Under the pieces are notes generated by a model. That model was not told where the DNA came from. It ran no database searches and saw only the letters and a program-made list of their open reading frames with translations. From positions 1 through 53,315 of the forward strand of contig NZ_JAPUVR010000106.1 of the NCBI RefSeq assembly GCF_029255125.1: a stretch of DNA of 53,315 nt. The letters run 5' to 3'. The stretch comes from Accumulibacter sp. (GTDB lineage Bacteria > Pseudomonadota > Gammaproteobacteria > Burkholderiales > Rhodocyclaceae). A program made the position numbers and the translations under genes. Positions within the stretch are counted from its first letter, which is position 1. Each line of letters begins with the position of its first letter. Shown here piece by piece: positions 1 through 53,315 of the stretch.

Positions 1-177
1 ATCGAGCAAGGCATCGGGCAGGGTCAGGCACGGCTGCTCAGGCAGTTGCTGAATTGCCGTTTCGGTGCTTTGCCGCCCTGGGTCGAGACCCGCCTGGCCG
101 ACGCCGAACCGGCGCGGCTGGAGACGTGGGCGCGGCGTGTGCTCGACGCAGCGAGCCTGGAGGCGGTGTTCGACGAG
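1..177 (+). pseudogene. C-terminal fragment of a DUF4351 / Rpn-family protein, stop codon lost
   Basis: The window opens inside a forward reading frame. Its first ~57 residues (short Glu/Gln/Gly-rich helix, then RLLRQLL..RFG.LPPWVETRL and a VLDAASLEAVF-like end) match the DUF4351 C-terminal domain found on Rpn-type recombination-promoting nucleases / putative transposases (PD-(D/E)XK family). Such proteins normally stop a few residues after the LEAVF-like motif. Here the frame stays open through the hairpin region and on as antisense of the next gene up to base 2901, so the natural 3' end appears to be lost or replaced. The catalytic nuclease part would lie left of the window. Family assignment is from motif memory only. 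Confidence 0.55.
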
Positions 178-278
178 CGTGGCCGAGCGCTTTCCGCAGC
201 GCTGTGGGCCGCGGTGCCGGGCTTGTTGGCGACGCCGCGCCGGCGGCAAAATGGGCAAGGCCCGAAAAAATTTCGCGC

Positions 279-314
279 GGGGCGCTGCGCGCCCCGGAAC
301 GCCGCTGCGCGGCG
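279..314 (-). repeat. Two tandem GCA-loop hairpins downstream of variable region 1
   Basis: Read on the minus strand, bases 314-300 form a 6-bp stem (CGCCGC/GCGGCG) with a GCA loop. Bases 295-279 form a 7-bp stem (GGGGCGC/GCGCCCC) with the same GCA loop, followed by a T-rich run. The first hairpin starts exactly 38 nt after the 60-nt identical block shared with the gene at 45745-49005, and the same pair occurs there with the same spacing. Hairpin or cruciform structures just downstream of the target site are known requirements for DGR retrohoming. The second hairpin plus T-run could also act as a transcription terminator. Confidence 0.7.
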
Positions 315-345
315 ACAGAGAGACAGAGCAGCAGAGAAACAGAGA

Positions 346-3144
346 TCAGCGTTCCGGTGGGCAGCGGTTCAAAAGGATGGGGGACACACACACCACCCGA
401 ACGCCAAGGGCGTAGTTGCGGCCTCCGGGATGGGAGAGGTAGCGGACAGCACAGCGCGCGTCGCCGCGGTTGGCGAGCCAGGAGCCGCCGCGCACCACGC
501 GCCGGGCGTCGCCGTCTTCGCTCACATCCTTTGGCGTGTCGTAGGCGTTGAGACACCACTCCCAGACATTGCCGGCCAGATCGAAGACGCCGTGCACCGA
601 CTGGCCCGCCGGGTACACGCCGACCGCGGTCATGCGGCCAAGCTGGTTTTCAAAGGTGTTGGCGCACCCCGCGTGCCATTCGCCCCAGGGGTAATCGCGC
701 TGCGCGTCGCCGCCGGTCGCCGCCTGCTGCCACTCCCATTCGGTCGGCAGGCGGACCTCGTGGCCGGCGACGCGGGTGAGCCAGCGGCAATAGGCGATCG
801 CTTCGAAGCAGGTGATCATGACCGCCGGCTGGTTGGCGCGCCCGCGCTGCGGGTCAGGTTCCCAGCCGCGCACCCGGCGCACCAACGCCTCGTAGCCCTC
901 CTCGGCGGCGACGAAAGCCTGCCATTGGGCGACGGTGATCGGGTAGCGGGCCATGTGGAAAGGCTGGACCTTGAAGCGTCGCCGTCGCGTCGGCGCCGCC
1001 TCGTCGACTGCGAGCACCACCTCGCCGCCGGGGATCGCCTGCCAGACGAGGTCGGGAACGCCGTCGGCGGTCAGGCCGACGCCGGGGCGTGGGTCGCCGT
1101 CGGGCAGCAGCGTCAGGCGGTCGCCGATCCTTGCCCGTTCACCGTGCGTCGTCGCCGGGTCGGCGAGACGGGCGAGCAGCTCGTCGGCGGCGAGCGGGCC
1201 GAGGAAGCGGCGCTCGTTCTCGCTCAGCGCGAAGCGCGTCCCCAGCCGGCGCAGCATCGGCGCCGTTTCGTTCATGACCCGCTCGTCCGACCAGCGATGG
1301 GAATCGCCGTGCGTCTGCCAGGCTTGCGCCGCACGCTCGATCTCGCGTCGCTGGTGCAGGTCGGCGCGGTTTTCAGCCAGCCAGTCGACCAGGCGCGGCC
1401 AGCGCCGGATCAGCGCTTCGTGCGCGACTTCGACCGTCTCCTCGCCGCGCGCCGGGTCGTTGCCGACGACGAGCAGGCGCTTACTGGCCAGTTGCTCGAT
1501 CAGCGGCTGTGCGGCGGCGGCGAAATCGCCGCGCCGCGCCCGCCGGCGCGTGTCTTCGCTGTTGTCGCCCAGTTGCACGAGCTGCAGGAAGACGTCGCGC
1601 ACGAGGTCATGGCGCTGCTGCGCGCCGCCGGGTGCGAGTTCGTCGAGCACGCCGTCGGCGTAGCGGACGATGGCGCCGGCGACGCCGCCGAGCGCGTCGT
1701 AGGCGCGATGGCACATGCGGCCGGCGGCGTCGCGCTGCGCGAAAAGCTGCGTCAGGCAGAATTCGAGCAGCGGCAGGTTGCCCGGCTCGTCGCCGACGTC
1801 GTCCAGCATGCGGCGGACGAGGCCGTCTTCGAAAGCGAAGCCGGCGACCTCGGCCGGGCCGACGATCGCCCGCTCGCGCTCGCTGCGCGTCATCCCGCCG
1901 AGGAAGACGGTTGCCGCCTGCAGGCGGTCGCGCAGCGGGCGGTGGTCGACGGCGTGGTGCGTGAAGTCGGCGCGCAGCGTGAGGACGACGGTCAGCGGCG
2001 CCTGCTGCGTACCAGTGATCAGCGCGTCGGCGAAGCGTGCGGCGGTTGCCGCCGTTGCTGCCGTCGGCGCGCTGATCTCGTCGCCGGCGGCGTCCTTCTT
2101 CTCGTAGGTGTACAGCTCCTCCCATTGATCGACGAGCAGCAGCAGACGGCGGCTGCCCGGCTGGCCGGCGAGGATGTCGGGCAGCAGGTGACGCAGCGCG
2201 AGCTTGCCGCCGTCGGCGCCCTTTGCCAGTTCGTCGGCCAGTTGGCCGATGACGAGCTGGCGCAGCGCGCCGGCGCTACCGGCGGCGTCCGCCCGACCCG
2301 TGGCGGCCAGATCGTGCAGGCAGCCGGCGAGGCTGCGCCAGGGTTCCTCGCCCGGCCGCAGCACGCCGACCGCCCAGCCGCCGCGCCGGCGCAGCGCCGG
2401 AATCAGCCCGGCCTGGACGACCGACGACTTGCCGCTGCCGGAAGCGCCGACGACAGCGACGAAAGGGCTGCCGTCGACGGCCTGCAGCAGCTCGCGCGTG
2501 AAGCCCTCGCGGCCGAAGAAGAACGGCGCGTCGGCGTCAGTGAAGGCGCGCAGGTCGCGGTAGGGGCAGTCGATGAGCGCGGGCGGCGGGCCGGCCGGCG
2601 TAGGGGCGGTGGCGCCCGGCGCGCCGCTGCTGGTTGCGCCGTCCGCTGCGCTGTGGCGCGGGTGGCGCTTTTCGTGCGCGACGAGCGCCTGCGTCAGCAG
2701 TCCGGCGAGGTCGTTGGCGGTGGTGAACGAGCGGCTGCTGACGCGCTCGCTGCGCAGCCGCTGCTTGAAGGCGGCAAGCAAGTCGCCGTCCTTGCCCTTG
2801 TCGACGCGGCTGGCCGGCCACGGATGCTCTTCGTCCATGAAGAAAAGCAGGCGCGGTTTGCCGCCGTCCCTGGCGCGCTCATGCTCGATCTCGCAGATTG
2901 AAACGGCGCTGCCCGCTGGCTTCCAGCCGTAGCGGAAGGCGTAGAGGCCGACGAAAATATCGGCCGCGTCGACTTCGCGCAGGCAGACGGCTTCGGCGTC
3001 GGCGTCCTCCGCCGGCCAGTATTCCATGCCGAGCGGGAAATAGCCGAGGCCGAGGCAGGCCGCGACGACCTGCCGGCGATGCTCGGGCAGGTCGATCGAT
3101 GTGCTCGAAATGAAGACGCTGGGCCGGGCCGGCGGTTGGGACAT
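346..3144 (-). CDS. DUF4062 - STAND NTPase - FGE-sulfatase protein, candidate DGR target
   Basis: A 932-residue multidomain protein. Residues ~8-150 are a DUF4062 domain (VFISSTSIDL start), typical of N-termini of STAND signalling proteins. Residues ~190-680 are a novel-STAND NTPase: a FFFGRE motif at ~208-212, Walker A GASGSGKS at 233-240, and a hydrophobic Walker B ending in DQWEEL. The conserved VAHEALIRRWPRL segment marks the end of the winged-helix part. Residues ~685-932 are an FGE-sulfatase (C-type-lectin-like) domain with GNVWEW and VVRGGSW motifs. The start is ATG at 3144, preceded by CAGGGGA and placing the DUF4062 fold at the N-terminus; the frame extends 76 codons further upstream but that part is low-complexity. 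The last 43 residues are encoded by the variable/constant cassette shared with 45745-49005. Likely an intracellular sensor of the biological-conflict type; the trigger is unknown. Confidence 0.85.
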   Translation of the reverse strand: MSQPPARPSVFISSTSIDLPEHRRQVVAACLGLGYFPLGMEYWPAEDADAEAVCLREVDAADIFVGLYAFRYGWKPAGSAVSICEIEHERARDGGKPRLLFFMDEEHPWPASRVDKGKDGDLLAAFKQRLRSERVSSRSFTTANDLAGLLTQALVAHEKRHPRHSAADGATSSGAPGATAPTPAGPPPALIDCPYRDLRAFTDADAPFFFGREGFTRELLQAVDGSPFVAVVGASGSGKSSVVQAGLIPALRRRGGWAVGVLRPGEEPWRSLAGCLHDLAATGRADAAGSAGALRQLVIGQLADELAKGADGGKLALRHLLPDILAGQPGSRRLLLLVDQWEELYTYEKKDAAGDEISAPTAATAATAARFADALITGTQQAPLTVVLTLRADFTHHAVDHRPLRDRLQAATVFLGGMTRSERERAIVGPAEVAGFAFEDGLVRRMLDDVGDEPGNLPLLEFCLTQLFAQRDAAGRMCHRAYDALGGVAGAIVRYADGVLDELAPGGAQQRHDLVRDVFLQLVQLGDNSEDTRRRARRGDFAAAAQPLIEQLASKRLLVVGNDPARGEETVEVAHEALIRRWPRLVDWLAENRADLHQRREIERAAQAWQTHGDSHRWSDERVMNETAPMLRRLGTRFALSENERRFLGPLAADELLARLADPATTHGERARIGDRLTLLPDGDPRPGVGLTADGVPDLVWQAIPGGEVVLAVDEAAPTRRRRFKVQPFHMARYPITVAQWQAFVAAEEGYEALVRRVRGWEPDPQRGRANQPAVMITCFEAIAYCRWLTRVAGHEVRLPTEWEWQQAATGGDAQRDYPWGEWHAGCANTFENQLGRMTAVGVYPAGQSVHGVFDLAGNVWEWCLNAYDTPKDVSEDGDARRVVRGGSWLANRGDARCAVRYLSHPGGRNYALGVRVVCVSPILLNRCPPER
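352..411 (-). other. IMH-like constant block 1 (60 nt identical to 48940-48999)
   Basis: This block encodes the C-terminal residues from ALGVRVVCV to CPPE. It is identical base for base, including all third codon positions, to 48940-48999, although the FGE domains upstream of the cassette differ strongly in DNA. In DGRs the initiation-of-mutagenic-homing site lies immediately 3' of the variable region and stays constant, which fits this position. Identity of coding DNA between otherwise diverged genes implies recent copying. Confidence 0.75.
412..477 (-). other. Candidate DGR variable region 1 (VR1)
   Basis: These 22 codons (residues 890-911 of the 346-3144 protein) follow the conserved VVRGGSW motif. 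Against 48874-48939 there are 13 amino-acid changes. Eighteen of 19 base differences fall at codon positions 1 and 2 and one at position 3. Every variable codon can be derived from a template with A at the changed positions: mostly AAC, for example CTC/TTC, GCC/GAC, AAC/GAC, GAC/TTC, TCC/CGC, with one TAT (TGT/TTT) and one ACT (GCT/ACT). Interspersed R, A, H, P, G and N codons are constant. This is the pattern of adenine-specific mutagenic retrohoming. Confidence 0.78.
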
Positions 3145-3370
3145 CGTTTTCCCCTGGACGATGGGCGCTGGCGCGATTATCTCTCGCCGGGCGTGTCGGC
3201 GGGAGGGAGATTGTCTGCCGGCCGGGCGCCCGGCAGCGGCGATCGCTGGTCGACGGCCGCCGCCGGGCAGAGCGGGCCGGCTTCCGGTAGAATCCCGCCT
3301 GCGCGCCGGCGCTTGCCGCCGTTCCGGCTTCCGTCCTTCCCTCCCTCCTTCCTTCGCTTCCCGGCCGTTC

Positions 3371-4018
3371 ATGGATTACCTGCTCAGCTTCATCGACATC
3401 GTCCTGCATCTCGACAAGCACTTGGCTTTGCTTGTCCAGCAGTACGGACAATGGATTTACGTGATTCTCTTCGCGATCATCTTCAGCGAGACGGGTTTTG
3501 TCGTGACGCCTTTTCTGCCCGGCGACTCGCTGATTTTCGTCGCCGGCGCGCTGGCGGCGCTCGGTGGAATGGACATCGGCATCCTGCTCGCGGTGCTCAG
3601 CGCGGCGGCGATCCTCGGCAACATGGTCAATTACCAGATCGGTCGCTTTCTCGGACCGAAGGTCTTCCATTGGGAGCAGTCGCGCTTCTTCAACAAGGCG
3701 GCGCTCGACAAGACGCACGCTTTCTACGAGAAGCACGGCGGCAAGACGCTGGTCATTTCGCGTTTCCTGCCGCTCTTCAGGACTTTCGCGCCCTTCGTCG
3801 CCGGGATCGGCGCGATGGGCTACGCGCGCTTCACGTTCTTCAACCTGATCGGCGCGCTGGCCTGGGTCGGCTCGCTGACGCTGGCCGGTTACTGGTTCGG
3901 CAATCTGCCGTGGATCCAGCAGAATCTGACGCTGGTCATCGTGGCGATCATCGTCATTTCGCTGCTGCCGGTCGTCTACGGCTGGTGGCAGCATCGGCAG
4001 GCTGGAGGGCAAGCATGA
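3371..4018 (+). CDS. DedA-family inner-membrane protein
   Basis: A 215-residue DedA/SNARE-associated (DUF groups around YqjA/YghB/DedA) protein, the usual family length. The hallmark motif around residues 38-52 (FSETGFVVTPFLPGDS) with the acidic residue and PGDS is present, as is the conserved RFLPLFRTFAPFVAG block with membrane-embedded arginines at ~135-150. Family members are polytopic and are implicated in lipid carrier or phospholipid flipping and in envelope proton-motive-force homeostasis. The start is ATG at 3371; the frame extends upstream into non-conserved sequence. A TAGAAT -10-like hexamer lies at 3288-3293. The stop overlaps the purN start as ATGA, so the two are translationally coupled. 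Confidence 0.9.
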   Translation: MDYLLSFIDIVLHLDKHLALLVQQYGQWIYVILFAIIFSETGFVVTPFLPGDSLIFVAGALAALGGMDIGILLAVLSAAAILGNMVNYQIGRFLGPKVFHWEQSRFFNKAALDKTHAFYEKHGGKTLVISRFLPLFRTFAPFVAGIGAMGYARFTFFNLIGALAWVGSLTLAGYWFGNLPWIQQNLTLVIVAIIVISLLPVVYGWWQHRQAGGQA

Positions 4019-4668
4019 TTTCGCTCGTCATCCTGATTTCCGGGCGGGGCAGCAACATGGCTGCGCTGCTGGACGCCGCCGGGCGCGGCGACCTGCCGGT
4101 ACGCATCGCTGGCGTCGTGGCGAATCGGCCGGATGCCGCCGGTTTGGCGACGGCCGCCGCCGCCGGCGTGCCGACCTGCGTCGTCGATCATCGCGCTTTC
4201 GCCGGCCGCGCAGAGTTCGACGCCGCGCTGGCCGAGGCGATCGACGCTTGCGCGCCGGATCTGGTCGTTCTCGCCGGCTTCATGCGCATCCTCGGCGAGG
4301 CTTTCGTGCAACGCTACGCCGGTCGTCTGCTCAACATTCATCCGTCGCTGCTGCCCGCCTTCCCCGGTCTGCACACGCACCGGCGGGCGCTCGCCGAGGG
4401 CGTGCGGATTCACGGCTGCAGCGTGCATTTCGTCACCGCCGACCTCGACCATGGGCCGATCGTCGTCCAGGCAGCCGTTCCGGTTCTCGACAGCGACGAT
4501 GAGGAGACGCTGGCCGCGCGCGTTATCGCGCAGGAGCACCGGATCTACCCGCTCGCCGTGCGCTGGTTCGCCGAAGGCCGCCTGCAGTTGCGCCAGGGGC
4601 GCGTCGTCTGTGCCGTCGAACAGGCCGCGCACCCCTGGCTGATCGTTCCGGCGAGCGCGGCCGGCTGA
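4015..4668 (+). CDS. purN: Phosphoribosylglycinamide formyltransferase (PurN)
   Basis: A 217-residue GART. It transfers the formyl group from 10-formyltetrahydrofolate to glycinamide ribonucleotide in step three of cytosolic purine synthesis. Visible signatures are SGRGSN at residues 9-14 (phosphate-binding loop), LAGFMRIL at ~86-93, NIHPSLLPAFPG with catalytic Asn107 and His109, and TADLDHGPI with the catalytic Asp at 145. The start overlaps the dedA stop (ATGA). The length matches E. coli PurN (~212). It sits in a run with dedA, DUF3108, rsmB and mscS with overlaps or gaps of at most 11 nt, so co-transcription is likely. Confidence 0.96.
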   Translation: MISLVILISGRGSNMAALLDAAGRGDLPVRIAGVVANRPDAAGLATAAAAGVPTCVVDHRAFAGRAEFDAALAEAIDACAPDLVVLAGFMRILGEAFVQRYAGRLLNIHPSLLPAFPGLHTHRRALAEGVRIHGCSVHFVTADLDHGPIVVQAAVPVLDSDDEETLAARVIAQEHRIYPLAVRWFAEGRLQLRQGRVVCAVEQAAHPWLIVPASAAG

Positions 4669-4679
4669 CCGGCGGGCCG

Positions 4680-5828
4680 ATGCAGCGTGGTTTGCTCGTT
4701 GCTCTGCTCGTCTCGCTCGTGCTGCATGCGCTGGCGCTCTTCGCGACGCAGATGAGCTTGCCGGGCGCGGGCGATCCACCCCCGTTGCTCGCCGAGTTGC
4801 GTCCGTCGCCGCAGACGGGCGGTGCAGCGCCGGCGCAGCTCAGCGACCCGCCGCCGGTAAGGCGCGCGGCGCCGCGGCCGCCGCCGGCGCGACCGCGTGC
4901 GGCGCGTCCGACGCCGCCGCGTGACTCGGCAATCGTCGCTGCGCCGCCCGCGAGCGCACCGCCAGAGGTCGCGCCGGACGAACCGGCGCCGGCCGACGCG
5001 CTTGGCGATGCGCCGGCGGCGGACGATCAGCCGGAACGGGCGGCAGAGCAGCCCGCTGCGCCGGACGAAGTGGGCGATGTGGCGGGCGCACCCGGGATGG
5101 GCAGCGTTCCGGGCATACCCGGAGTGGCCGGCGTACCCGAGGTGGGCGGCGATGAGCCGGCCGCTGTCGAGGCGACACCGCCGGTCGTCGTCACCGCGCG
5201 TCTGCCGGCGCGCGGCTCGATTCGCTACCGCGTCGAGCGTGGCGACCGCAGTTTCCCGATCGGTTTCGCGCGGCAGGAGTGGGAGGTGCGCGCCGACCGT
5301 TACCGGATCAGCGCGCTGAGCGAGACGAGCGGGCTGGTCGCCCTGTTCAAACGCGTGCGCGTCGAGGCCGAGAGTCGCGGCCGGGTCGGTTCCAGCGGCC
5401 TCGTTCCGGAGCACTTCGTCGTCCGCCGCAGCGGACGCGAGCGCGCCGAGGAGATCGATTTCGACTGGCCGGCGCGCCAGGTGCGCATGGGCGAGCGGCC
5501 GCCGCTGGCGCTGCGCGGCGGGACGCAGGACATCCTGTCGCTGAACTTTCAACTGGCGCTGCTGCCCGAGCATTCCGGCGTCGCAGTGAACGTCGCTACT
5601 GGCCGCAAGCTGGCCGGCTATCGGATCGAGGTGATGGGCGAGGAGACGATCGAGACACCGGCGGGCAGTTTCCGCTGCCTGCACCTGCGCCTTGCCGGCA
5701 CGGCGACGACCGAGCTTTGGCTGGCTTACGAGCAGGCGCTGCTGCCGGTGAAGATTCGCCATGTCGATCGCAAGGGTGACGTCTTCGTGCAGTCGGCGAC
5801 CCACATCGATTTCACCCGGGAACCCTGA
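4680..5828 (+). CDS. DUF3108 protein with N-terminal anchor and Pro/Ala-rich spacer
   Basis: A 382-residue protein of unknown function. An N-terminal membrane anchor (~5-25) is followed by a long Pro/Ala/Arg-rich spacer (~30-165), including short GVPGIPGVAGVPEVGG-like repeats, then a DUF3108 domain from ~170 to the end with GSIRYRVERGD and a VTARLPARG start. The topology (cytoplasmic-membrane anchor plus extended spacer, as in TonB or TolA) suggests a periplasmic domain reaching into the envelope; this is inference. DUF3108 genes often sit beside purN in betaproteobacteria. It follows purN by 11 nt and overlaps the next start as TGATG. Confidence 0.8.
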   Translation: MQRGLLVALLVSLVLHALALFATQMSLPGAGDPPPLLAELRPSPQTGGAAPAQLSDPPPVRRAAPRPPPARPRAARPTPPRDSAIVAAPPASAPPEVAPDEPAPADALGDAPAADDQPERAAEQPAAPDEVGDVAGAPGMGSVPGIPGVAGVPEVGGDEPAAVEATPPVVVTARLPARGSIRYRVERGDRSFPIGFARQEWEVRADRYRISALSETSGLVALFKRVRVEAESRGRVGSSGLVPEHFVVRRSGRERAEEIDFDWPARQVRMGERPPLALRGGTQDILSLNFQLALLPEHSGVAVNVATGRKLAGYRIEVMGEETIETPAGSFRCLHLRLAGTATTELWLAYEQALLPVKIRHVDRKGDVFVQSATHIDFTREP

Positions 5829-14223: not shown

Positions 14224-15078
14224 TCAGCGCGGACCGAGGACGAGGCGAAAACCTGTGCTGCGCGGGCGGTAGGCGGGCTCGATCCGGCTGCGCGTGGCCG
14301 AGCGTGCATAGCGCGCCGGGTCGCTCCAGGTGCCGCCGCGCAGCACGCGCATCTTGCCGTACGGTGGCCCGCGCGGGTCGGACTGCGGTTCGCAGACATA
14401 CTCGCAATACCAGTCGGCACACCACTCCCAGACGTTGCCGTGCATTTCGTACAGGCCCCAAGGGTTGGCCGGCAGCGAAGCGACCGGCACCGTCTGACCA
14501 CGATGGATTCCCGGCGCGCCGCCAGCGTACGGATGCTCGCCGTGGTAATTCACCTGCTCGGGGGTGATTCCTGGGCCGAAGGAAAACGCTGTCGTGGTGC
14601 CGGCACGGCAGGCGTATTCCCACTCGGCTTCGCTCGGCAGACGCGCGGCGAGCCCGGGCAATCGTTTGTTCAGCTCGCTGATGAAGCCTTGCGCATCGTG
14701 CCAGCTGACGTTTTCGACCGGATTCTGTCGGCAGGCGTCGAAGTGGCTGGGATTGACCGGCCAGACGGCGAGCCAGAACTCCTGCGTACAGGCGGTGTCG
14801 GCCAGCCAGTAGCCATACGACAGGCGCACTTCGTGTTGGCTTTCGCTGTTGCCGCGCTGCGCTTCGTCGGCCGGTGAGCCCATCATGAAGCAACCGGGAG
14901 GAATCCAGCGAAAAACCTGGCGGGCGTTGCCGATTTTCAGAGTCAGCGAGCGACCGTAATCGTCATCCTCGCCAAACGCCGTCCAGGGAACGCGAAAAGG
15001 CGGCTCGATTCGACTTCCGGACGTCTCACTGGCAGGTTTCAACGCCATCGGGGCGGAGACTGAAGGCTGGCTGGACAT
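14224..15078 (-). CDS. FGE-sulfatase (SUMF1-like) domain protein
   Basis: 284 residues, almost entirely a formylglycine-generating-enzyme / sulfatase-modifying-factor fold: FRWIPPGCFMMGSPADE at ~57, NPVENVSWHDAQGFISELN, RLPSEAEWEYACRAGT, MHGNVWEWCADWY and RVLRGGTWSD..STGFRLVL. It has no signal peptide. Unlike the FGE ends at 346-3144 and 45745-49005, it lacks the repeated variable/constant cassette and the GCA hairpins, so it looks like a non-diversified relative. Whether it has true oxidase activity cannot be told. Convergent with the caspase gene. Confidence 0.88.
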   Translation of the reverse strand: MSSQPSVSAPMALKPASETSGSRIEPPFRVPWTAFGEDDDYGRSLTLKIGNARQVFRWIPPGCFMMGSPADEAQRGNSESQHEVRLSYGYWLADTACTQEFWLAVWPVNPSHFDACRQNPVENVSWHDAQGFISELNKRLPGLAARLPSEAEWEYACRAGTTTAFSFGPGITPEQVNYHGEHPYAGGAPGIHRGQTVPVASLPANPWGLYEMHGNVWEWCADWYCEYVCEPQSDPRGPPYGKMRVLRGGTWSDPARYARSATRSRIEPAYRPRSTGFRLVLGPR

Positions 15079-45744: not shown

Positions 45745-48700
45745 ATGAGACGCGCCGCGCCCGCTACCACACCGACCGACTTCTTCATCAGCTACACGCA
45801 AGCCGATGAAGACTGGGCGGCGTGGATTGCCTGGCAGCTCGAAGAGGCCGGCTACCGGACGCTGATCCAGGCGTGGGATTTCGCTGCCGGCGGCAACTTC
45901 GTCGGCGAGATGCAGCGCGCACTGCAGACAGCGGCGCGCACGATTGCCGTGCTGTCGGACGAGTACCTGGCGGCGCCCTTTCCGCACGCCGAGTGGACGG
46001 CTGCTTTCGCGCAGGACCCGACAGCCGAAGCCGGCCGCCTGCTGCCGGTGCGCGTGGCGGCCTGCCGGCCGGACGGGCTGCTGGGGCAGGTCGTCTACAT
46101 CGATCTCGTCGGGCTCGACGAGGCGACCGCGCGGACGAAACTGCTGACCGAAGTCTACCGCGGCAGGCGCAAGCCGGCGACGCCGCCCGGCTTTCCGGGC
46201 CCAGCCCGGGCGACGTCCGGCGGCGCCGCCACGACGCCATCGCCGCCCGCTTTTCCCGGAAGCGCGGAGAACCCCTTGCGCGCGCTGCAGCAAGCCGTCG
46301 TTGCCGGTGGCGAGCTGCCGGAGCTTGCTGAGGCTGCGCTGCGCGAGATCGGGGCCCACTCGCCGCGCACGCTGGCCGAATACCGCCTCGGCCGCATCGC
46401 CGAATGGTCGCAGCCGCGGCACGCGCTGAACAAGCGCTTCACGCGGTTGACGCTGCTGCTCGATCAGGGACAGGACGCGCAAGGCGTTCGCTGGCAGCCG
46501 CAGGCGCAGAGTTTCGACGACCTGCGCCAGGTGCTTGCCGCCGCGGTCGATGCGCCGGCGCTCGTCGTCCTCGGCCCGCCGGGCTGCGGCAAGAGCACGC
46601 TGCTGCGCCGGCTCGAACTCGACCTCGCCTGCGCCGCGCTGCGCGCCGGCGGCGGGGAGGGCGAGCCTCAGGGCACAACGAGTGCGGACGCCGACGCCGA
46701 CGCCGACGAGAGCGTCATCACCTTCTTCGTGCCGCTCAACCGCTACCGGCCGGCGAACCCCGGCGCAGCGCTGCCGTTGCCGGGCGACTGGCTGACGGCC
46801 GAATGGGCGCGCCGCACGCCCGATCTGCCGGCGCTCGCCGACATCCTGCGCGGCCGCCGGCTGCTCCTGCTGCTCGACGCGGTGAACGAAATCCCGCACA
46901 CCGACGCGGCCGACTACGAACAGCGCATCGAGCTCTGGCGCGACTTTCTCGCCCGACCGCCGACCGGGTGGCGCATGCGGGCGATCTTCTCGTGCCGCAG
47001 CCTGGACTACAGCGCCTCGCTGTCGACGCCGGAGTTGTCGGTGCCGCACGTGCGCATCGAACAACTCTCCGACCGCCAGGTTGAAGACTTCCTCGCCGCG
47101 TACAGCCCGGCGCACGGCGCCGACCTCTGGCGACAACTGCGCGGCACGCCGCAGCTCGATCTTTTCCGCTCGCCGTTCTACCTACGGCTGTTGATCGCCC
47201 AGGCCGGCGAAGGCGGGCCGCTGCTGCGCGGTCGCGCCGCACTGTTCACCGGCTTCGTCCGTCAGGCGCTGCTGCGCGAAATCGAAGCCGGCAATCGGCT
47301 CTTCCGCCCCGGCTTCCTGCTCGACCGACGAGACAACGAACATATCGTTCGCCGCGCCTGGCGCAATGCGCTCGACCTGCCGACGCGCGGTCCGCTGCTG
47401 CCGGCGCTCAGCCGCCTGGCGCATGCCCTGCAGGCGCGCCGCGCGCCGGGCGAAGCCTCGCGCGTGGGCGTGCCGTGGGACGACGCCTGCCAGCTCCTCG
47501 CCGCGGCGGACGCCGCGCCGGCGGCCGAGCTGCTGCACGCCGGCGGCGCGCTGCAGGTGCTCGAAGAACAATGGGACGACATCCTCTACGTCCACCAGTT
47601 GTTGCAGGAGTATTTCGCTGCCCGCGCGCTGGCCGCGCATCCGCAACCGGGCCTGGTCGCCGGCGAATGGCGCGCCGACCGCGTCTCGCCCAGCCTGAGC
47701 GAAGTCATCGCCGGCCTGGGCGACGCCGACCCGCTGCCGGCGCTGCCGGGCAGCGGCTGGGAAGAGGCCTTTGTCCTCGCCGCGGCGCTGGCGCCGCGCG
47801 CCGACGACTTCGTCGCTGCCGTCGGCGCGGTAAACCTGCCGCTCGCCGGTCGCTGCGCCGCGCAGCCGGATGTGGCCGTTTCCGAGCCGTTGCGCCGGCG
47901 GCTGCAGGACGAGTTGATCGCCCGCAGCCGCGACCGGGCGGCCGACCTGCGCGCGCGCATCGGCGCGGCGCGCGCGCTGGGCGAACTCGGCGACCCGCGT
48001 TACGAACGGCGCAGCGGGCCGCACGGCGCCTACTTGCTGCCGCCGCTGGTGGCGATTGCCGGCGGCGACTACCCGCTGGGCAGCGACGAAGGGCTGTACG
48101 ACAATGAAGCGCCGGCGCATCGCGTGTCGGTCGCCGCCTTCGCCATTGCCCGTTTTGCGCTGAGCAACGCCGAGTGGCGGCTGTTCATCGAAGCCGGCGG
48201 CTACGACGACGAGCGCTGGTGGGAGGGCGAAGCAGCGCAAGCCTGGCGCCGCGGCGAAGGCACGGCCGACGGGCCGAAGGAGGCCTCGCTTGACGCCCGG
48301 CGCTGGGTGCAGGACAACCTAGCGGCGGTGCGCCTGTGGCCAGCCGAGGGCCGCATGACTTTGCAGCGGCTGACCGATTGGGAGAAGTGGTGCGCGATGT
48401 CCGACGCCGAGTTTGCAGCGCTGCTTGAAGGCGAGTACCCGTCCGGTCGGCAGAGGCAGCCGACGTACTGGAACGATCCAGCGTTCAACCAGGCGGCGCA
48501 GCCGGTAGTCGGTGTGTCCTGGTACGAAGCGTGCGCGTACTGCGCGTGGCTGTCGGAGCAGACAGGGCAGGCGTGGCGGTTGGCGAGCGAGGCGGAGTGG
48601 GAAGCTGCGGCGCGCGGAAGGGCGGGTCGGCGTTACCCGTGGGGAGACGATTTCGACCCTGCACGCGCGAACACCTTCGAAACGCACGCGCGTACAACGA

Positions 48701-49005
48701 CGCCGGTGGGGGTGTTTGCCGGCGGCGACACGCTGGAGGCCGTGGCCGATCTGAGCGGCAACGTCTGGGAATGGACGAGCAGCGCGTACGAGTCGTACCC
48801 CTACGTGGCGGACGATGGGCGCGAAGATCCGGATCGGACGACGCCCCGGCGCGTGGTGCGCGGCGGCTCTTGGTTCGACGACCGCGACTTCGCGCGCTTT
48901 ACTTACCGCGGCCGCCGCCATCCTGGAACCCGCAACAACGCCCTTGGCGTTCGGGTGGTGTGTGTGTCCCCCATCCTTTTGAACCGCTGCCCACCGGAAT
49001 GCTGA
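45745..49005 (+). CDS. TIR-NACHT-FGE-sulfatase protein, candidate DGR target
   Basis: 1086 residues. Residues ~11-135 are a TIR domain (TIR_2-like, DFFISYTQADEDWAAWIAWQLEEAGY). The catalytic Glu for NAD cleavage cannot be identified with certainty. A Pro/Gly-rich linker with two FPG repeats follows (~145-175). The NACHT/STAND NTPase (~220-700) has Walker A GPPGCGKST at 277-285 and Walker B LLLLLDAVNEIP at 373-384, with a low-complexity insert (ADADADAD) between them. The FGE-sulfatase fold (~766-1086) has GNVWEW and RRVVRGGSW. Residues 1044-1065 are the variable stretch and the last 20 residues match those of the 346-3144 protein. Likely a conflict-type sensor; ligand unknown. Confidence 0.88.
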   Translation: MRRAAPATTPTDFFISYTQADEDWAAWIAWQLEEAGYRTLIQAWDFAAGGNFVGEMQRALQTAARTIAVLSDEYLAAPFPHAEWTAAFAQDPTAEAGRLLPVRVAACRPDGLLGQVVYIDLVGLDEATARTKLLTEVYRGRRKPATPPGFPGPARATSGGAATTPSPPAFPGSAENPLRALQQAVVAGGELPELAEAALREIGAHSPRTLAEYRLGRIAEWSQPRHALNKRFTRLTLLLDQGQDAQGVRWQPQAQSFDDLRQVLAAAVDAPALVVLGPPGCGKSTLLRRLELDLACAALRAGGGEGEPQGTTSADADADADESVITFFVPLNRYRPANPGAALPLPGDWLTAEWARRTPDLPALADILRGRRLLLLLDAVNEIPHTDAADYEQRIELWRDFLARPPTGWRMRAIFSCRSLDYSASLSTPELSVPHVRIEQLSDRQVEDFLAAYSPAHGADLWRQLRGTPQLDLFRSPFYLRLLIAQAGEGGPLLRGRAALFTGFVRQALLREIEAGNRLFRPGFLLDRRDNEHIVRRAWRNALDLPTRGPLLPALSRLAHALQARRAPGEASRVGVPWDDACQLLAAADAAPAAELLHAGGALQVLEEQWDDILYVHQLLQEYFAARALAAHPQPGLVAGEWRADRVSPSLSEVIAGLGDADPLPALPGSGWEEAFVLAAALAPRADDFVAAVGAVNLPLAGRCAAQPDVAVSEPLRRRLQDELIARSRDRAADLRARIGAARALGELGDPRYERRSGPHGAYLLPPLVAIAGGDYPLGSDEGLYDNEAPAHRVSVAAFAIARFALSNAEWRLFIEAGGYDDERWWEGEAAQAWRRGEGTADGPKEASLDARRWVQDNLAAVRLWPAEGRMTLQRLTDWEKWCAMSDAEFAALLEGEYPSGRQRQPTYWNDPAFNQAAQPVVGVSWYEACAYCAWLSEQTGQAWRLASEAEWEAAARGRAGRRYPWGDDFDPARANTFETHARTTTPVGVFAGGDTLEAVADLSGNVWEWTSSAYESYPYVADDGREDPDRTTPRRVVRGGSWFDDRDFARFTYRGRRHPGTRNNALGVRVVCVSPILLNRCPPEC
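48874..48939 (+). other. Candidate DGR variable region 2 (VR2)
   Basis: 22 codons encoding residues 1044-1065, aligned without gaps to 412-477 (minus). See that entry for the counts. Residues that vary are interleaved with constant R, A, H, P, G and N. Many variable codons end in C, as expected for AAC codons in a template. Confidence 0.78.
48940..48999 (+). other. IMH-like constant block 2
   Basis: 60 nt identical to 352-411 (minus strand), covering ALGVRVVCV to CPPE. It is followed by a pyrimidine-rich stretch that is similar but not identical between the two copies, and then by the hairpins at 49037-49094. Confidence 0.75.
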
Positions 49006-49036
49006 TCACTGATTTTCTGATCTTCTGCTCCTCTGT

Positions 49037-49094
49037 CGCCGCGCAGCGGCGTCGTTCTTCGGCTTTTCCGCTTTTCACCGGGCGCGCAGCGCCC
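49037..49094 (+). repeat. Two GCA-loop hairpins downstream of variable region 2
   Basis: CGCCGC-GCA-GCGGCG at 49037-49051 is identical to the first hairpin beyond VR1 and begins 38 nt after the constant block, exactly as there. GGGCGC-GCA-GCGCCC at 49080-49094 is a second hairpin of the same design, one base pair shorter than its VR1 counterpart. Confidence 0.7.
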
Positions 49095-49561
49095 GCGCCT
49101 TGTTGCGGGCGATTTTCTCCGTGTTTCCACTGAGCTTTCCGAGAAACTACGGATGGTGCAAGCCCCTTGGTCTCGTTACGCTTGTGTGGTGCGCGCTACG
49201 GCTGAGGGCGGCGTCGCCTGTCACCGTTGGGCTGGCGGTGCGGCGGGTGAAGGGCGGTTTTGCTCGTCGCCGGGCGAGCAGCGAGCATCGCCTGTGGAGC
49301 CCTCCCGGCAGAGCCCGAGACGCTCGCGAACGGAAGGCGAGATCCGGTGAAGCGGCGTCGTCCGTGCACGCCGGTTGGCCGAGCTCTCGGCCTGGCCGTC
49401 CCGTCCGCGGCTTGACCGTGCCGGCAACGAGCGGCTTCGCTGGCTGGCGTGCCCTTTTTGCCGGAGGGGCTGGCTCCCGGTCTCGGGCGTAGCGCGTTTA
49501 TCGCCTGCCGCCGTTGCTGCGCGGCGGGCGTGTTCGCGTTCTTTGACCGGGGGAGATATCG
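49095..49561. other. 467-nt region without a supported gene
   Basis: Between the second hairpin and the chemoreceptor start. Frames exist on both strands but show no recognisable domain. A GGGGGAGATATCG segment directly before 49562 serves as the ribosome-binding site of the next gene. Nothing else is seen. Confidence 0.45.
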
Positions 49562-51091
49562 ATGTTCCGCAATCTCAATCTGGGTACCCGCCTGGGAGCT
49601 GCCTTCGCTGCCGTACTCATCCTGCTGCTTGGCGTCGCCGGGATCGGCTTCAAGCGTGTTGGCGACCTGCAGGCCGAGATCAGCGATCTGGTCCAGGACA
49701 AGAACCGGAAAGTCAGGCTGGCCAACGAGCTCAACGACATCGTGCATGTGGCTGCCGCGTCGCGCCTGAACATGTTGATTCTGCGCAACGACGAGGCGAG
49801 TCACAACGAACTCGAGCAACGCGCGGCAGCGAGCAAGCGGGCGACCGAGATCATCGACACGCTCGCCGGTTTGCGCGATGGCGAGGCGGGCGAGGCGGGC
49901 AAGGCAGCGCTGGCGGCGATCGTGCAGGCGCGGGCGGCGTCGAACGCGATGTCCGGCACGCTGCAGGAGATGATCAAGGCGAAGGAATGGGAGGCGGCGG
50001 TCAGCCATTTCGGCAAGCACTATCGTCCGGCGCAAGCGGCTTATCTGAAAGCCATCGGCGATTTCGTCGGGCAGCAGAATGAGCGCGCCGAGGAGGTCAG
50101 CCGGCGAGCGGAGGGGCTGGTCGCCTCGACGCACGTGCTGATCGCCGGCCTGGCCGCGGCGGCGGTCTTGCTCGGTGGCGCGCTGGCGACCTGGATTTGC
50201 CTTTCGATTACGCGACCGATCCACAGCGCGCTGCAGGTTGCCGGCGCGCTCGCCGAGGGTGATCTGTCGGTCGGCATCGAGGCGGATGGCAAGGACGAAC
50301 TCGGCCAGTTGCTGACGGCGATGCAGGCGATGGTCGGTAAGCTGGGTACGATCATCGGCGAGGTGCTCGCCGCCGCCGACAATGTATCGAACGCCTCCGG
50401 CCAGGTGTCGTCCACCGCCGTTTCGCTCTCGCAGTCGACCAGCGAGCAGGCGGCGGCGGCCGAGGAAACCAGTGCCAGCATCGAAGAGATGAGCGCCGCG
50501 ATCGTGCGCAACAGCGAGAACGCGAAAGTCACCGAGGGCATGGCCGCGGGCGCTGCGCGGCAGGCGGGCGAGGGCGGTGCGGCGGTGGCTCGCACGGTCG
50601 AGGCGATGAAGAGCATCGCCGGCAAGATCGGCATCGTCGACGACATCGCCTACCAGACGAATCTGCTGGCGCTCAACGCAGCGATCGAGGCGGCGCGCGC
50701 CGGCGAGCACGGCAAGGGCTTCGCCGTCGTTGCCGCCGAGGTGCGCAAACTCGCCGAACGCAGCCAGGTTGCCGCGCAGGAAATCGGCACGCTGGCGCGT
50801 GATTCGGTCGGCCTCGCGGAAGGCGCCGGCGCGCTGCTCGTCGAAATGGTGCCGTCGATCCGCAAGGTGTCCGACTTCGTGCGCGAAATCGCCGCCGCCT
50901 CGCACGAGCAGTCCACGCGGGTTGGCCAGATCAGCAGCGCGATGGGCCACTTGAATCAGGCGACGCAGCAGAACGCTTCGGCCTCCGAGCAACTCGCCGC
51001 GACGGCCGAAGAACTCGGTGCGCAGGCCATACAGTTGCAGGAGCTGATGGACTTTTTCCACCTTGGCCGCAAGGCGCACATCGCCGGCTGA
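49562..51091 (+). CDS. Methyl-accepting chemotaxis protein
   Basis: 509 residues. TM1 is ~8-30, a helical periplasmic (4HB_MCP-type) sensor spans ~31-185, and TM2 is ~190-212. HAMP follows, then a long coiled-coil signalling domain with the hairpin-tip motif [30 protein letters not shown]. It directs CheA activity; the ligand is not predictable. It lies between two TIR-NACHT paralogues, both on the same strand. Confidence 0.93.
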
Positions 51092-51205: not shown

Positions 51206-51320
51206 ATCGTCCCCGGCATCGCTCGCCGAGAGCGGACGACACCGGACGGCATTGCCGAGAGCAGCGCGCAGCGCTGGCCAGTTTCTCGGCATTCCGCCTA
51301 CCGCCCAGCCCGAGCCCACG

Positions 51321-53315
51321 ATGACTTCCAGCGCCGCGACGCCGCCGATCGACTTCTTCGTCAGCTACACGCAGGCCGACCGCGCGTGGGCCGAGTGGAT
51401 TGCCTGGCAGCTCGAAGACGCGGGCTACAAGACATTGATTCAGGCATGGGACTTCGACCCGGGCAGCAATTTCGTCAGCGCGATGCAGCGCGCGCTGCAG
51501 AAGGCCGAGCGCACGATTGCCGTGTTGTCGGACGCCTACTTCGCTTCGGGCTTCACCGAGGCCGAATGGACAGGCGCTTTCGCGGCGGGTCGCCAGCGTC
51601 TGCTGCCGGTGCGCGTGCGCGACTGTCGGCCGGATGGCTTGCTCGCTGCCATCGTCTACCTCGATCTGGTCGGTGCTGACGAGGTGGCAGCGCGCGCGAA
51701 GCTGCTCGCCGGAGTCGAACGCGGGCGGCGCAAGCCGCCGACGGCGCCGCCATTCCCGGGCGCTGCAGCATCGGCGCCGCCGGCTTTCCCCGGCGTTGCG
51801 CGCGCTCCGCTGAGCGGGCTGCGCCGGGCGATCATCGACGGCGGCGAGCTGCCGGAAATCAGCGAAGCCGCGCTGCACGAGATCCTCGCCGCTTCGCCGC
51901 GCACGCTGAGCGACTACCGACTGGCGCGCATTGCCGAATGGTCGCAGCCGCGCTACGCGCTGAACAGGCGCTTCACGCGGCTGACGCTGCTGCTCGACCA
52001 GGGGCAGGACGCGCAAGGCATGCGCTGGCAGGCGCAGCCGCAGAGCTTCGACGATCTGCGCCAGGTGCTCGCGGCCGCGGCCGACGCGCCGGCACTCGTC
52101 GTTCTCGGCCCGCCCGGCTGCGGCAAGAGCACGCTGCTGCGCCGGCTGGAACTCGACCTGGCGTACGACGCACTACGCGCGGCAGAAGGCAAAGGGAAGG
52201 GCCAAGGCGAAGGGGAAGGCCAGGGCACAGGCGAAGGCACAGGCGAAGGCACAGGCGAAGGCACAGGCGCAGCCCGGGCGGTGGGCGGAGTAGCCGCCGA
52301 CGGCTGGGTGAGCTTCTTTGTCCCGTTGAACCGCTACCGACCGGCGCGCGCCGGCGAAGCGCTACCGTCGCCGGATGACTGGCTGGCGGCCGAATGGGAG
52401 CGGCGCACGCCGCACCTGCCGCCGCTCGCCGATTTCCTGCGGCGCGGCCGGGTGCTTCTCCTGCTCGATGCGGTCAACGAAATCCCGCACGGCGACGCGG
52501 CGGACTACGCACAGCGGATCGACCTATGGCGCGACTTCCTCGCGCGCCTGCCGCATGGCGTGCGCGCGATCTTTTCGTGCCGCCGCCTCGACTACAGCGC
52601 ATCGCTGTCGACGCCGGAGCGTTCGGTGCCGCACGTGCGCATCGAACAACTCGCCGACCGTCAGGTCGAAGACTTCCTCGCCGCATACAGCCCGACGCAC
52701 GGCGCCGACCTCTGGTCGCAACTGCGCGGCACGCCGCAACTCGATCTCTTCCGCTCGCCGTTCTACCTGCGCCTGCTGATCGCCCAGGCGGGTGAAGGCG
52801 GGCCGCCGCTGCGTGGGCGCGCCGCCCTGTTCACCGGCTTCGTTCGGCAAGCGCTGCTGCGCGAAATCGAAGCTGGCAACCGAATGTTTCGCCCTGGCTA
52901 CCTGCTCGACGCGCGCGACCACGCACACATCGTCCGCCGCGAATGGCGCAACGCGCTCGAACTGCCGACGCGCGGCCCGCTCCTCCCGGCGCTCAGCCGG
53001 CTGGCGCATGCGCTGCAGGCGCGCCGCGCACCGGGCCAAGCCTCGCGCGTGCGCGTGCCGTGGGACGACGCCTGCGAACTCCTCAGCGCTTCGGGCGGCG
53101 GCGTACCGGCGGCCGAGCTGCTGTGCGCCGGCAGCGCGCTGCAGGTGCTCGAAGAACAATGGGACGACCTCCTCTACGTCCACCAGTTGCTGCAGGAATA
53201 CTTCGCCGCGCGCTGGCTGGCTGCGCACCCGCAGGCGGAACTCGCCGCCAGCGAATGGCGCGCGGCGACGATCTCGCCCAGCCTGGACGAAGTGATCGCC
53301 GGTCTCGGTGACGCC
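51321..53315 (+). CDS. Second TIR-NACHT protein, truncated by the window end
   Basis: 665 residues visible, open to the right. TIR domain ~10-130 (DFFVSYTQADRAWAEWIAWQLEDAGY). The linker, NACHT Walker A GPPGCGKST and Walker B VLLLLDAVNEIP closely parallel 45745-49005. A Gly/Glu/Thr low-complexity insert occupies the same inter-motif position as the ADADADAD insert of the paralogue. The FGE domain expected at the C-terminus is beyond the window. ATG at 51321 aligns with the paralogue's start. Confidence 0.87.
   Translation, partial: MTSSAATPPIDFFVSYTQADRAWAEWIAWQLEDAGYKTLIQAWDFDPGSNFVSAMQRALQKAERTIAVLSDAYFASGFTEAEWTGAFAAGRQRLLPVRVRDCRPDGLLAAIVYLDLVGADEVAARAKLLAGVERGRRKPPTAPPFPGAAASAPPAFPGVARAPLSGLRRAIIDGGELPEISEAALHEILAASPRTLSDYRLARIAEWSQPRYALNRRFTRLTLLLDQGQDAQGMRWQAQPQSFDDLRQVLAAAADAPALVVLGPPGCGKSTLLRRLELDLAYDALRAAEGKGKGQGEGEGQGTGEGTGEGTGEGTGAARAVGGVAADGWVSFFVPLNRYRPARAGEALPSPDDWLAAEWERRTPHLPPLADFLRRGRVLLLLDAVNEIPHGDAADYAQRIDLWRDFLARLPHGVRAIFSCRRLDYSASLSTPERSVPHVRIEQLADRQVEDFLAAYSPTHGADLWSQLRGTPQLDLFRSPFYLRLLIAQAGEGGPPLRGRAALFTGFVRQALLREIEAGNRMFRPGYLLDARDHAHIVRREWRNALELPTRGPLLPALSRLAHALQARRAPGQASRVRVPWDDACELLSASGGGVPAAELLCAGSALQVLEEQWDDLLYVHQLLQEYFAARWLAAHPQAELAASEWRAATISPSLDEVIAGLGDA
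52224..52270 (+). repeat. 12-nt tandem repeat inside the NACHT domain gene
   Basis: GGCACAGGCGAA is repeated in frame almost four times (52224-52235, 52236-52247, 52248-52259, then a partial copy), encoding GTGE repeats. It falls between Walker A and Walker B, in a loop that also carries low-complexity sequence in the paralogue (ADADADAD). Confidence 0.85.

Follow-up and report, generated by a model that had tools for sequence, protein, structure and literature searches.

Putative variable repeats of one diversity-generating retroelement at the ends of two STAND NTPase genes of Accumulibacter, followed by a phased CTG array

The window analyzed here, a contig of 53,315 nucleotides (nt) from Accumulibacter sp. 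(NZ_JAPUVR010000106.1), carries two large genes that end in closely similar repeats, which we read as the variable repeats (VRs) of a diversity-generating retroelement (DGR). Gene A (346..3372, minus strand, 1008 aa) encodes DUF4062, an nSTAND1 NTPase, and a C-terminal FGE domain (Pfam PF13271, PF20703, and PF03781, all above cut-offs), and gene B (45745..49005, plus strand, 1086 aa) encodes TIR, NACHT, and a C-terminal FGE domain (PF13676, PF05729 at its cut-off, and PF03781). Gene B has the layout of an N-terminal effector, a STAND NTPase, and a C-terminal sensor, and gene A shows a matching three-part layout, DUF4062 being a domain of unknown function. Gene C (51252..53315, plus strand) also encodes TIR and NACHT (Pfam TIR_2 and NACHT) and is a paralogue of gene B, sharing 78% identity with residues 5-661 of the latter; the contig end truncates it before the sensor half, leaving it without the FGE domain and without any VR. 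PADLOC gave weak partial matches at most. VR-A (382..504, minus strand, variable codons inside 414-477) forms the 3′ end of gene A and VR-B (48847..48969, plus strand) that of gene B, and both genes have a lectin-type (FGE) fold there, as judged by Pfam and PDB sequence matches. In the PDB sequence search, the FGE part of gene A matched solved FGE-fold proteins, and it matched Treponema denticola variable protein 1 (PDB 2y3c, E 3.7e-6), which by its name and the literature is a DGR variable protein; that protein is not known to be fused to a STAND NTPase, unlike genes A and B. The FGE domain of gene A was also modelled from nine aligned sequences, and the model was set aside because its mean pLDDT (predicted local distance difference test) was 52.9, with values below 50 over the VR.

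When window 352-477 (minus strand) and 48874-48999 (plus strand) were aligned in frame and without gaps, they differed at 19 bases in 126 nt. Of these, 18 are first- or second-position changes within codons, and the remaining one (CCC/CCT) is a third-position change. Fourteen codons and 13 amino acids are changed, all within the first 22 codons. Apart from the fourteen codons, the same figures had been given by the first-pass annotation of this DNA, which took the block for a DGR variable repeat ending a STAND-FGE gene, and the identical stretch of 60 nt that it described is present, measuring 62 nt directly after the variable codons of both VRs. Assuming an equal chance at all positions, finding at most one of 19 differences at third positions has P = 0.0047. 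An extra third-position difference (TCC/TCT) lies just beyond the 126-nt block, bringing the 99-nt core to 20 differences. Between window 1-3600 and gene B, blastn gave a single significant match, an island of 171 nt at 87% (window 346-514, E 4e-50), the next-best match having E 0.002. Downstream of the VR, the two copies stay similar for another 89 nt at 90%.

Template repeats (TRs) that match this type of VR were found in related genomes. The constant-block pattern matched in 5 of 297 family genomes, our own included; one of them, G194, holds four copies, including an AAC-rich TR, and the single matches in G110, G220, and G238 were rejected, being located in an unrelated protein. Within the genus, VR DNA was matched in 23 of 28 genomes (again including our own) and reverse transcriptases (RTs) at 1e-10 in 19 of 28, although the weaker RT matches may be other RTs. 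Close reading of 15 stretches from nine genomes of the genus, together with G194, yielded seven TRs of the window-VR type (six in the genus, one in G194), called by their TCC-CAC ending and all AAC-rich. The window VRs end in TCC-CCC like the VRs of relatives, whereas the TRs end in TCC-CAC, so the difference between IMH and IMH* (initiation of mutagenic homing) is present. An RT or RT remnant stands on the contig of five of the seven TRs (G273, G305, G303, G299, and G194), and none was seen on the contigs of the two G312 TRs. RTs of this type have the DGR-type motifs GLPIGNL[TS]SQ and YVDD. In ten TR/VR comparisons over the 99-nt core in five genomes, the differences found at TR adenines were 17/17, 18/18, 17/19, 15/17, 11/12, 17/36, 18/19, 18/20, 15/35, and 15/15. 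Neither the G299 VR with a frameshift nor the C90 TR of G312 was paired for this count, and a comparison of G194's third VR was dropped because its register was wrong. An RT alignment also supplied 80 named loci, kept from among the matches listed, and 56 of these have an adenine-specific TR/VR pair in any strand arrangement. A same-strand scan of 26 loci with other template bases gave A in 20, G in 4, and C and T in 0.

The differences between the two window VRs mostly follow these templates. Of the 20 core differences, 15 are found in the 24 columns (out of 99) that carry A in four or more of the seven TRs (p=5.5e-8), and the numbers were 11/20 with a stricter column set (p=8.9e-5) and 16/20 with a looser one (p=3.1e-7). 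Three bases common to both window VRs occur in none of the seven TRs, which fits either a single template particular to these VRs or conversion from one VR to the other. The seven same-type TRs with adenine-concentrated differences, the RT or remnant beside five of them, and the VR-type ends and hairpins of both window repeats all support the annotation of a DGR variable repeat. Our reading, to which we give a probability of roughly 0.87, is that window 382-504 (minus strand) and 48847-48969 (plus strand) are VRs of one DGR system, that its TR and RT most probably lie in an assembly gap, and that the stretch behind the VRs may serve as a target address.

Behind VR-A lies a phased array of five CTG at 7-8 nt intervals (316..349, minus strand, with an extra CTG at 362-364), which is also seen in relatives, and an array of the same build follows VR-B (49002..49035, plus strand). 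On both strands of the window, these are the only two chains of at least five CTG, and other stretches of the same genome (173,056 nt, both strands, some overlap, VRs of other types included) had none. Aligned, the stretch following the VRs forms a conserved noncoding block, with 6.78 CTG per 62 nt behind 23 VRs against 1.00 behind seven TRs. For the named loci, counts were made on the 50 with a same-strand TR/VR pair and full flanks, as five of the 56 pair loci have other strand arrangements and one further locus has short flanks; the hairpin count keeps 51, and 31 of the 51 were used for CTG composition and spacing. At least four CTG in 70 nt were found behind 41/50 VRs, 2/50 TRs, and 8.6% of random stretches, and behind 36/45 VRs when the five Accumulibacter loci were removed. 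Gaps of 7 nt (95) and 8 nt (63) predominate. TCT is even more enriched behind VRs than CTG (z 28 against z 19) because the repeat unit is approximately TCTCTG. The 80 loci contain 59 CTG chains in 1,317,478 nt, and a simple rule places 42 of them, in 34/80 loci, behind a lectin-type VR motif; the remaining 17 include chains that resemble VR ends as well as plain repeats. Control triplets formed few chains (GTC 4, TCG 3, GCT 1, CGT 2, TGC 1), while CAG, the complement of CTG, formed 59 and CTC, which overlaps the unit, 31. The complement of the CTG unit was not enriched behind TRs. Among 22 comparison loci, 17 have a TR/VR pair and none reaches four CTG, although four of these counts are rough, the VR end having been placed early. 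Sixteen of the 17 belong to other RT types; the 17th (L235, 3 CTG) belongs to the window-VR clade. This last locus, from an IMG/VR contig filed as viral, has an RT 60% identical, a TR/VR pair with 17 adenine and 0 other differences, and a short CTG run behind its VR. In this RT clade, the phased array of CTG that follows the VRs is apparently a new observation, as no mention of it was found in searches of open-licence literature, mostly among the matches listed, and an earlier description may still exist.

Beyond the array, each window VR is followed by two hairpins with GCA triloops. Those behind VR-A, on the minus strand, are CGCCGC-GCA-GCGGCG (300..314) and CGGGGCGC-GCA-GCGCCCCG (278..296), and those behind VR-B, on the plus strand, are CGCCGC-GCA-GCGGCG (49037..49051) and CGGGCGC-GCA-GCGCCCG (49079..49095). 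In a scan of 160 nt for stems of at least 6 and loops of 3-5, at least one hairpin was found behind 19/23 VRs, 4/7 TRs, and 24.7% of random stretches, and at least two behind 16/23 VRs (the second being A/T-rich in two), 0/7 TRs, and 4.1% of random stretches. In the named loci, 37/51 VRs, 13/51 TRs, and 12.7% of random stretches had at least one. Folded as single-strand DNA, the window hairpin regions gave z -2.46 and -1.89. A different arrangement was seen in other genomes of the genus, at loci with an RT of the type found on contig C121 of our genome (L079-L084 and L097), where VRs are followed by GC-rich GGA-loop hairpins or GGAGCC-type repeats and no CTG array.

The own assembly measures 3.83 Mb in 150 contigs and is 99.96% complete by markers. 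The constant block, allowing up to three mismatches, had no further copy in it beyond the window VRs, a BLAST search of the genome for a TR-type match returned none, and the GGSWNNN pattern with up to one mismatch gave two hits beyond the window, one in a C133 TR and the other in a C49 VR. Exact constant-block scans of broader genome-contig and viral-contig collections gave 0 matches. RT searches of the genome returned two RTs. The one on C100 (L012, 4158-6857, plus strand) is an 899-aa protein that starts with the RT domain, and it was set aside as a DGR RT because we take the remainder, from a look at its sequence, to be Cas1-like. C121 (L011) contains an FGE gene, an HRDC gene, a DGR-type RT (IGSLCSQ), and a TR-like repeat, which was rejected as the template of the window VRs for its sequence mismatch. 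The active-site motif of this RT (4507-5745, minus strand) is YMDH, compared with YMDD in 12 relatives found by motif search, possibly reflecting loss of function or a sequencing error. C133 (L041, 293-2132) carries an FGE target gene with a VR, an avd-like gene (NCBIfam DivGenRetAVD 71.7 bits, cut-off 80, and also under the Pfam cut-off), and a TR, followed by an unrelated opposite-strand gene that we take to be truB, with no RT between. Over 104 nt, every difference between the C133 TR and the VRs of C133 and C8 is at an adenine (13/13 each); as no intact RT for this cassette was seen in the assembly, its RT is probably unassembled or very recently lost. No accessory genes (avd or HRDC) were seen adjoining the window VRs.

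Most probably, the TR and RT that match the window VRs lie in an assembly gap beyond a contig end, and the right end, inside gene C, would be the best candidate place. When our genome was searched with gene B at E 1e-6, no match on another contig covered residues 661-900, so the sensor half of gene C was not found, and because the contig ends inside this gene, we regard a gap as about twice as probable as a loss of the template. In G273 and G305, a gene of the gene-B type is followed by the TR and an RT or RT remnant. Relatives of gene A in G298 and G303 (C75) lie close to contig ends, and those in G300 and G304 do not. The first-pass annotation had proposed searching the genome for the template and a DGR-type RT, and neither a matching TR nor a matching RT turned up; its claim is not refuted by this, the assembly being a draft in 150 contigs and the window contig breaking off within a third target gene.

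Several points nevertheless weigh against our reading, beginning with the absence of both matching TR and matching RT from the searches of our own assembly. Two of the ten TR/VR comparisons, those of the second VR of G303 (17/36) and the frameshifted VR of G312 (15/35), have about as many or more differences away from adenines. Four of the 20 window differences (TCC/TCT, TGT/TTT, GCT/ACT, and the first base of GTC/TAC) lie in columns where none of the seven TRs has A, and one more (CCC/CCT) lies where a minority of them do. The annotation's statement that all changed codons fit A-containing templates may still be right, but the related TRs point the other way for some of them, and its view that adenine mutagenesis explains the whole pattern goes too far: these four or five differences, and approximately the final 30 nt of the identical tail, must have arisen in some other way. 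Retrohoming would not account for those 30 nt because TR/VR similarity in relatives stops at TCC-C/A-C, and from the alignments they are part of the conserved stretch behind the VR. RTs of the window-VR type also look broken to us in several relatives, and G158, a single-contig genome, has a window-type VR and no RT of this type, so true orphan VRs do exist. As for the address, composition accounts for part of the CTG excess (4.48 in shuffled VR stretches against 6.78 observed), leaving the 7-8 nt spacing unexplained, and the dense array is absent behind 9/50 VRs.

These points bear on other explanations to different degrees. That both window VRs were diversified by a DGR since lost from the strain, and are now drifting, is possible and in our view rather unlikely: the missing TR and RT, the VR of G158, the broken RTs of relatives, and the four differences at never-A columns would all fit, whereas the contig ends inside gene C, the reading frames and the stretch behind the VRs are intact, and the C133 TR keeps adenine-only differences from the C133 and C8 VRs even though its cassette has no RT and the other DGR-type RT has an altered active site. 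An origin without any DGR, by duplication or gene conversion of the 3′ end and subsequent positive selection acting on residues at the surface, seems very improbable given that the window differences concentrate on TR-adenine columns and that relatives have TRs with matching constant parts, five of seven with an RT or remnant on the contig; what speaks for it is that the identical tail outlasts the TR homology, which in any case calls for some conversion or duplication of the stretch behind the VR. Just as hard to believe is that the C121 DGR serves the window VRs in trans. C121 does offer a DGR-type RT, an HRDC gene, an FGE target gene, and a TR-like repeat, but this repeat is unlike the window VRs, the active site reads YMDH where the 12 relatives have YMDD, and VRs of the C121 RT type have no CTG array, several having GGA-loop hairpins instead.

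Under the reading we prefer, with VRs of one DGR system served from an assembly gap, an adenine-rich template RNA would be copied by an error-prone RT with an accessory protein, and the adenine-randomized cDNA would replace the VR at the 3′ end of the target genes. The diversified part would be the putative ligand-binding face of an immune-type sensor, as each target joins a TIR or DUF4062 module at the N terminus to a STAND/NACHT NTPase and, at the C terminus, an FGE-type lectin domain. Behind each VR, the stretch that is not copied from the template, with CTG every 7-8 nt and then the GC-rich triloop hairpins, would mark the site. An altered sensor would presumably change what triggers the NTPase and its effector, in line with the proposal in the part of Dore et al. 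2024 used here. The DGR may still be active in the source strain, and the target genes may have an antiphage function. The CTG array may act in target choice, and we lean somewhat towards the idea that the RT clade of the window VRs reads a DNA address, made of CTG every 7-8 nt (unit approximately G-A-T-C-T-CTG) and GC-rich hairpins, and that this address, rather than gene position, decides the targets, with another DGR type in the genus using GGA-loop hairpins. If hypermutation is directed by the address, a single RT could act in trans on targets scattered over the genome, and orphan targets could be assigned to an RT type from DNA alone.

The DUF4062-nSTAND1-FGE and TIR-NACHT-FGE targets are of a published kind. 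In the parts of Dore et al. 2024 (PMC10907252) used here, clade 5D DGRs diversify STAND/NACHT antigen sensors, and like the window they often have two targets with a central nSTAND1 or NACHT and a C-terminal lectin domain holding the VR, some with TIR; the same parts describe degenerate loci and trans activity and list Accumulibacter among hosts with multiple DGRs. The DUF4062 fusion and the CTG array of the window system do not appear in those parts, and the terms "hairpin" and "cruciform" are absent from the main text. DGRs are also tied to related conflict systems in the portion of Kaur 2020 that we drew on. In Bordetella phage BPP-1, according to the sections of Guo et al. 2011 (PMC3240598) used, a hairpin behind the VR acts in target recognition; it is a single hairpin with a GRNA tetraloop, 4-34 bp from the VR, whereas the window hairpins have triloops, stand approximately 70-130 nt off, and follow a CTG array, compared with 0 CTG in the 70 nt behind the BPP-1 VR. 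Nanoarchaeal DGRs, as covered in the excerpts of Paul et al. 2015 (PMC4372165) at hand, share two features with the window, hairpins with loops of three nucleotides and a G/A difference that sets IMH apart from IMH*, and differ in that the hairpin lies inside the target gene, with no array mentioned in those excerpts. Cis features have been suggested as activators of remote DGR targets (Vallota-Eastman 2020, PMC7517822), and RT-centred surveys miss such targets (Roux 2021), both as stated in the passages used.

How DGRs beyond the Bordetella phage model find their targets is an open question, on which the CTG array may bear. Found behind VRs and rarely behind TRs in many kinds of bacteria, the phased array is a simple and testable candidate for a target address, and it would allow unlinked targets to be found in fragmented genomes. 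The window itself adds hypermutated TIR/NACHT sensors in a bacterium that forms dense microcolonies.

A terminal overlap test showed that the window contig is not circular. For the third FGE gene of the window (14224-15078), no TR was found, and no further search was made. Elsewhere in the genome, C49, C40, C22, and C90 (L003, L007, L008, and L034) have additional FGE genes with VR-like ends of other types. The VRs of C49 and C121 resemble each other, no TR being seen for either, and the VR-like ends on C40 and C22 are similar to the C121 TR, with many changes at bases other than A. The window also carries a gene for a methyl-accepting chemotaxis protein (49562-51091, plus strand), located between target genes B and C.

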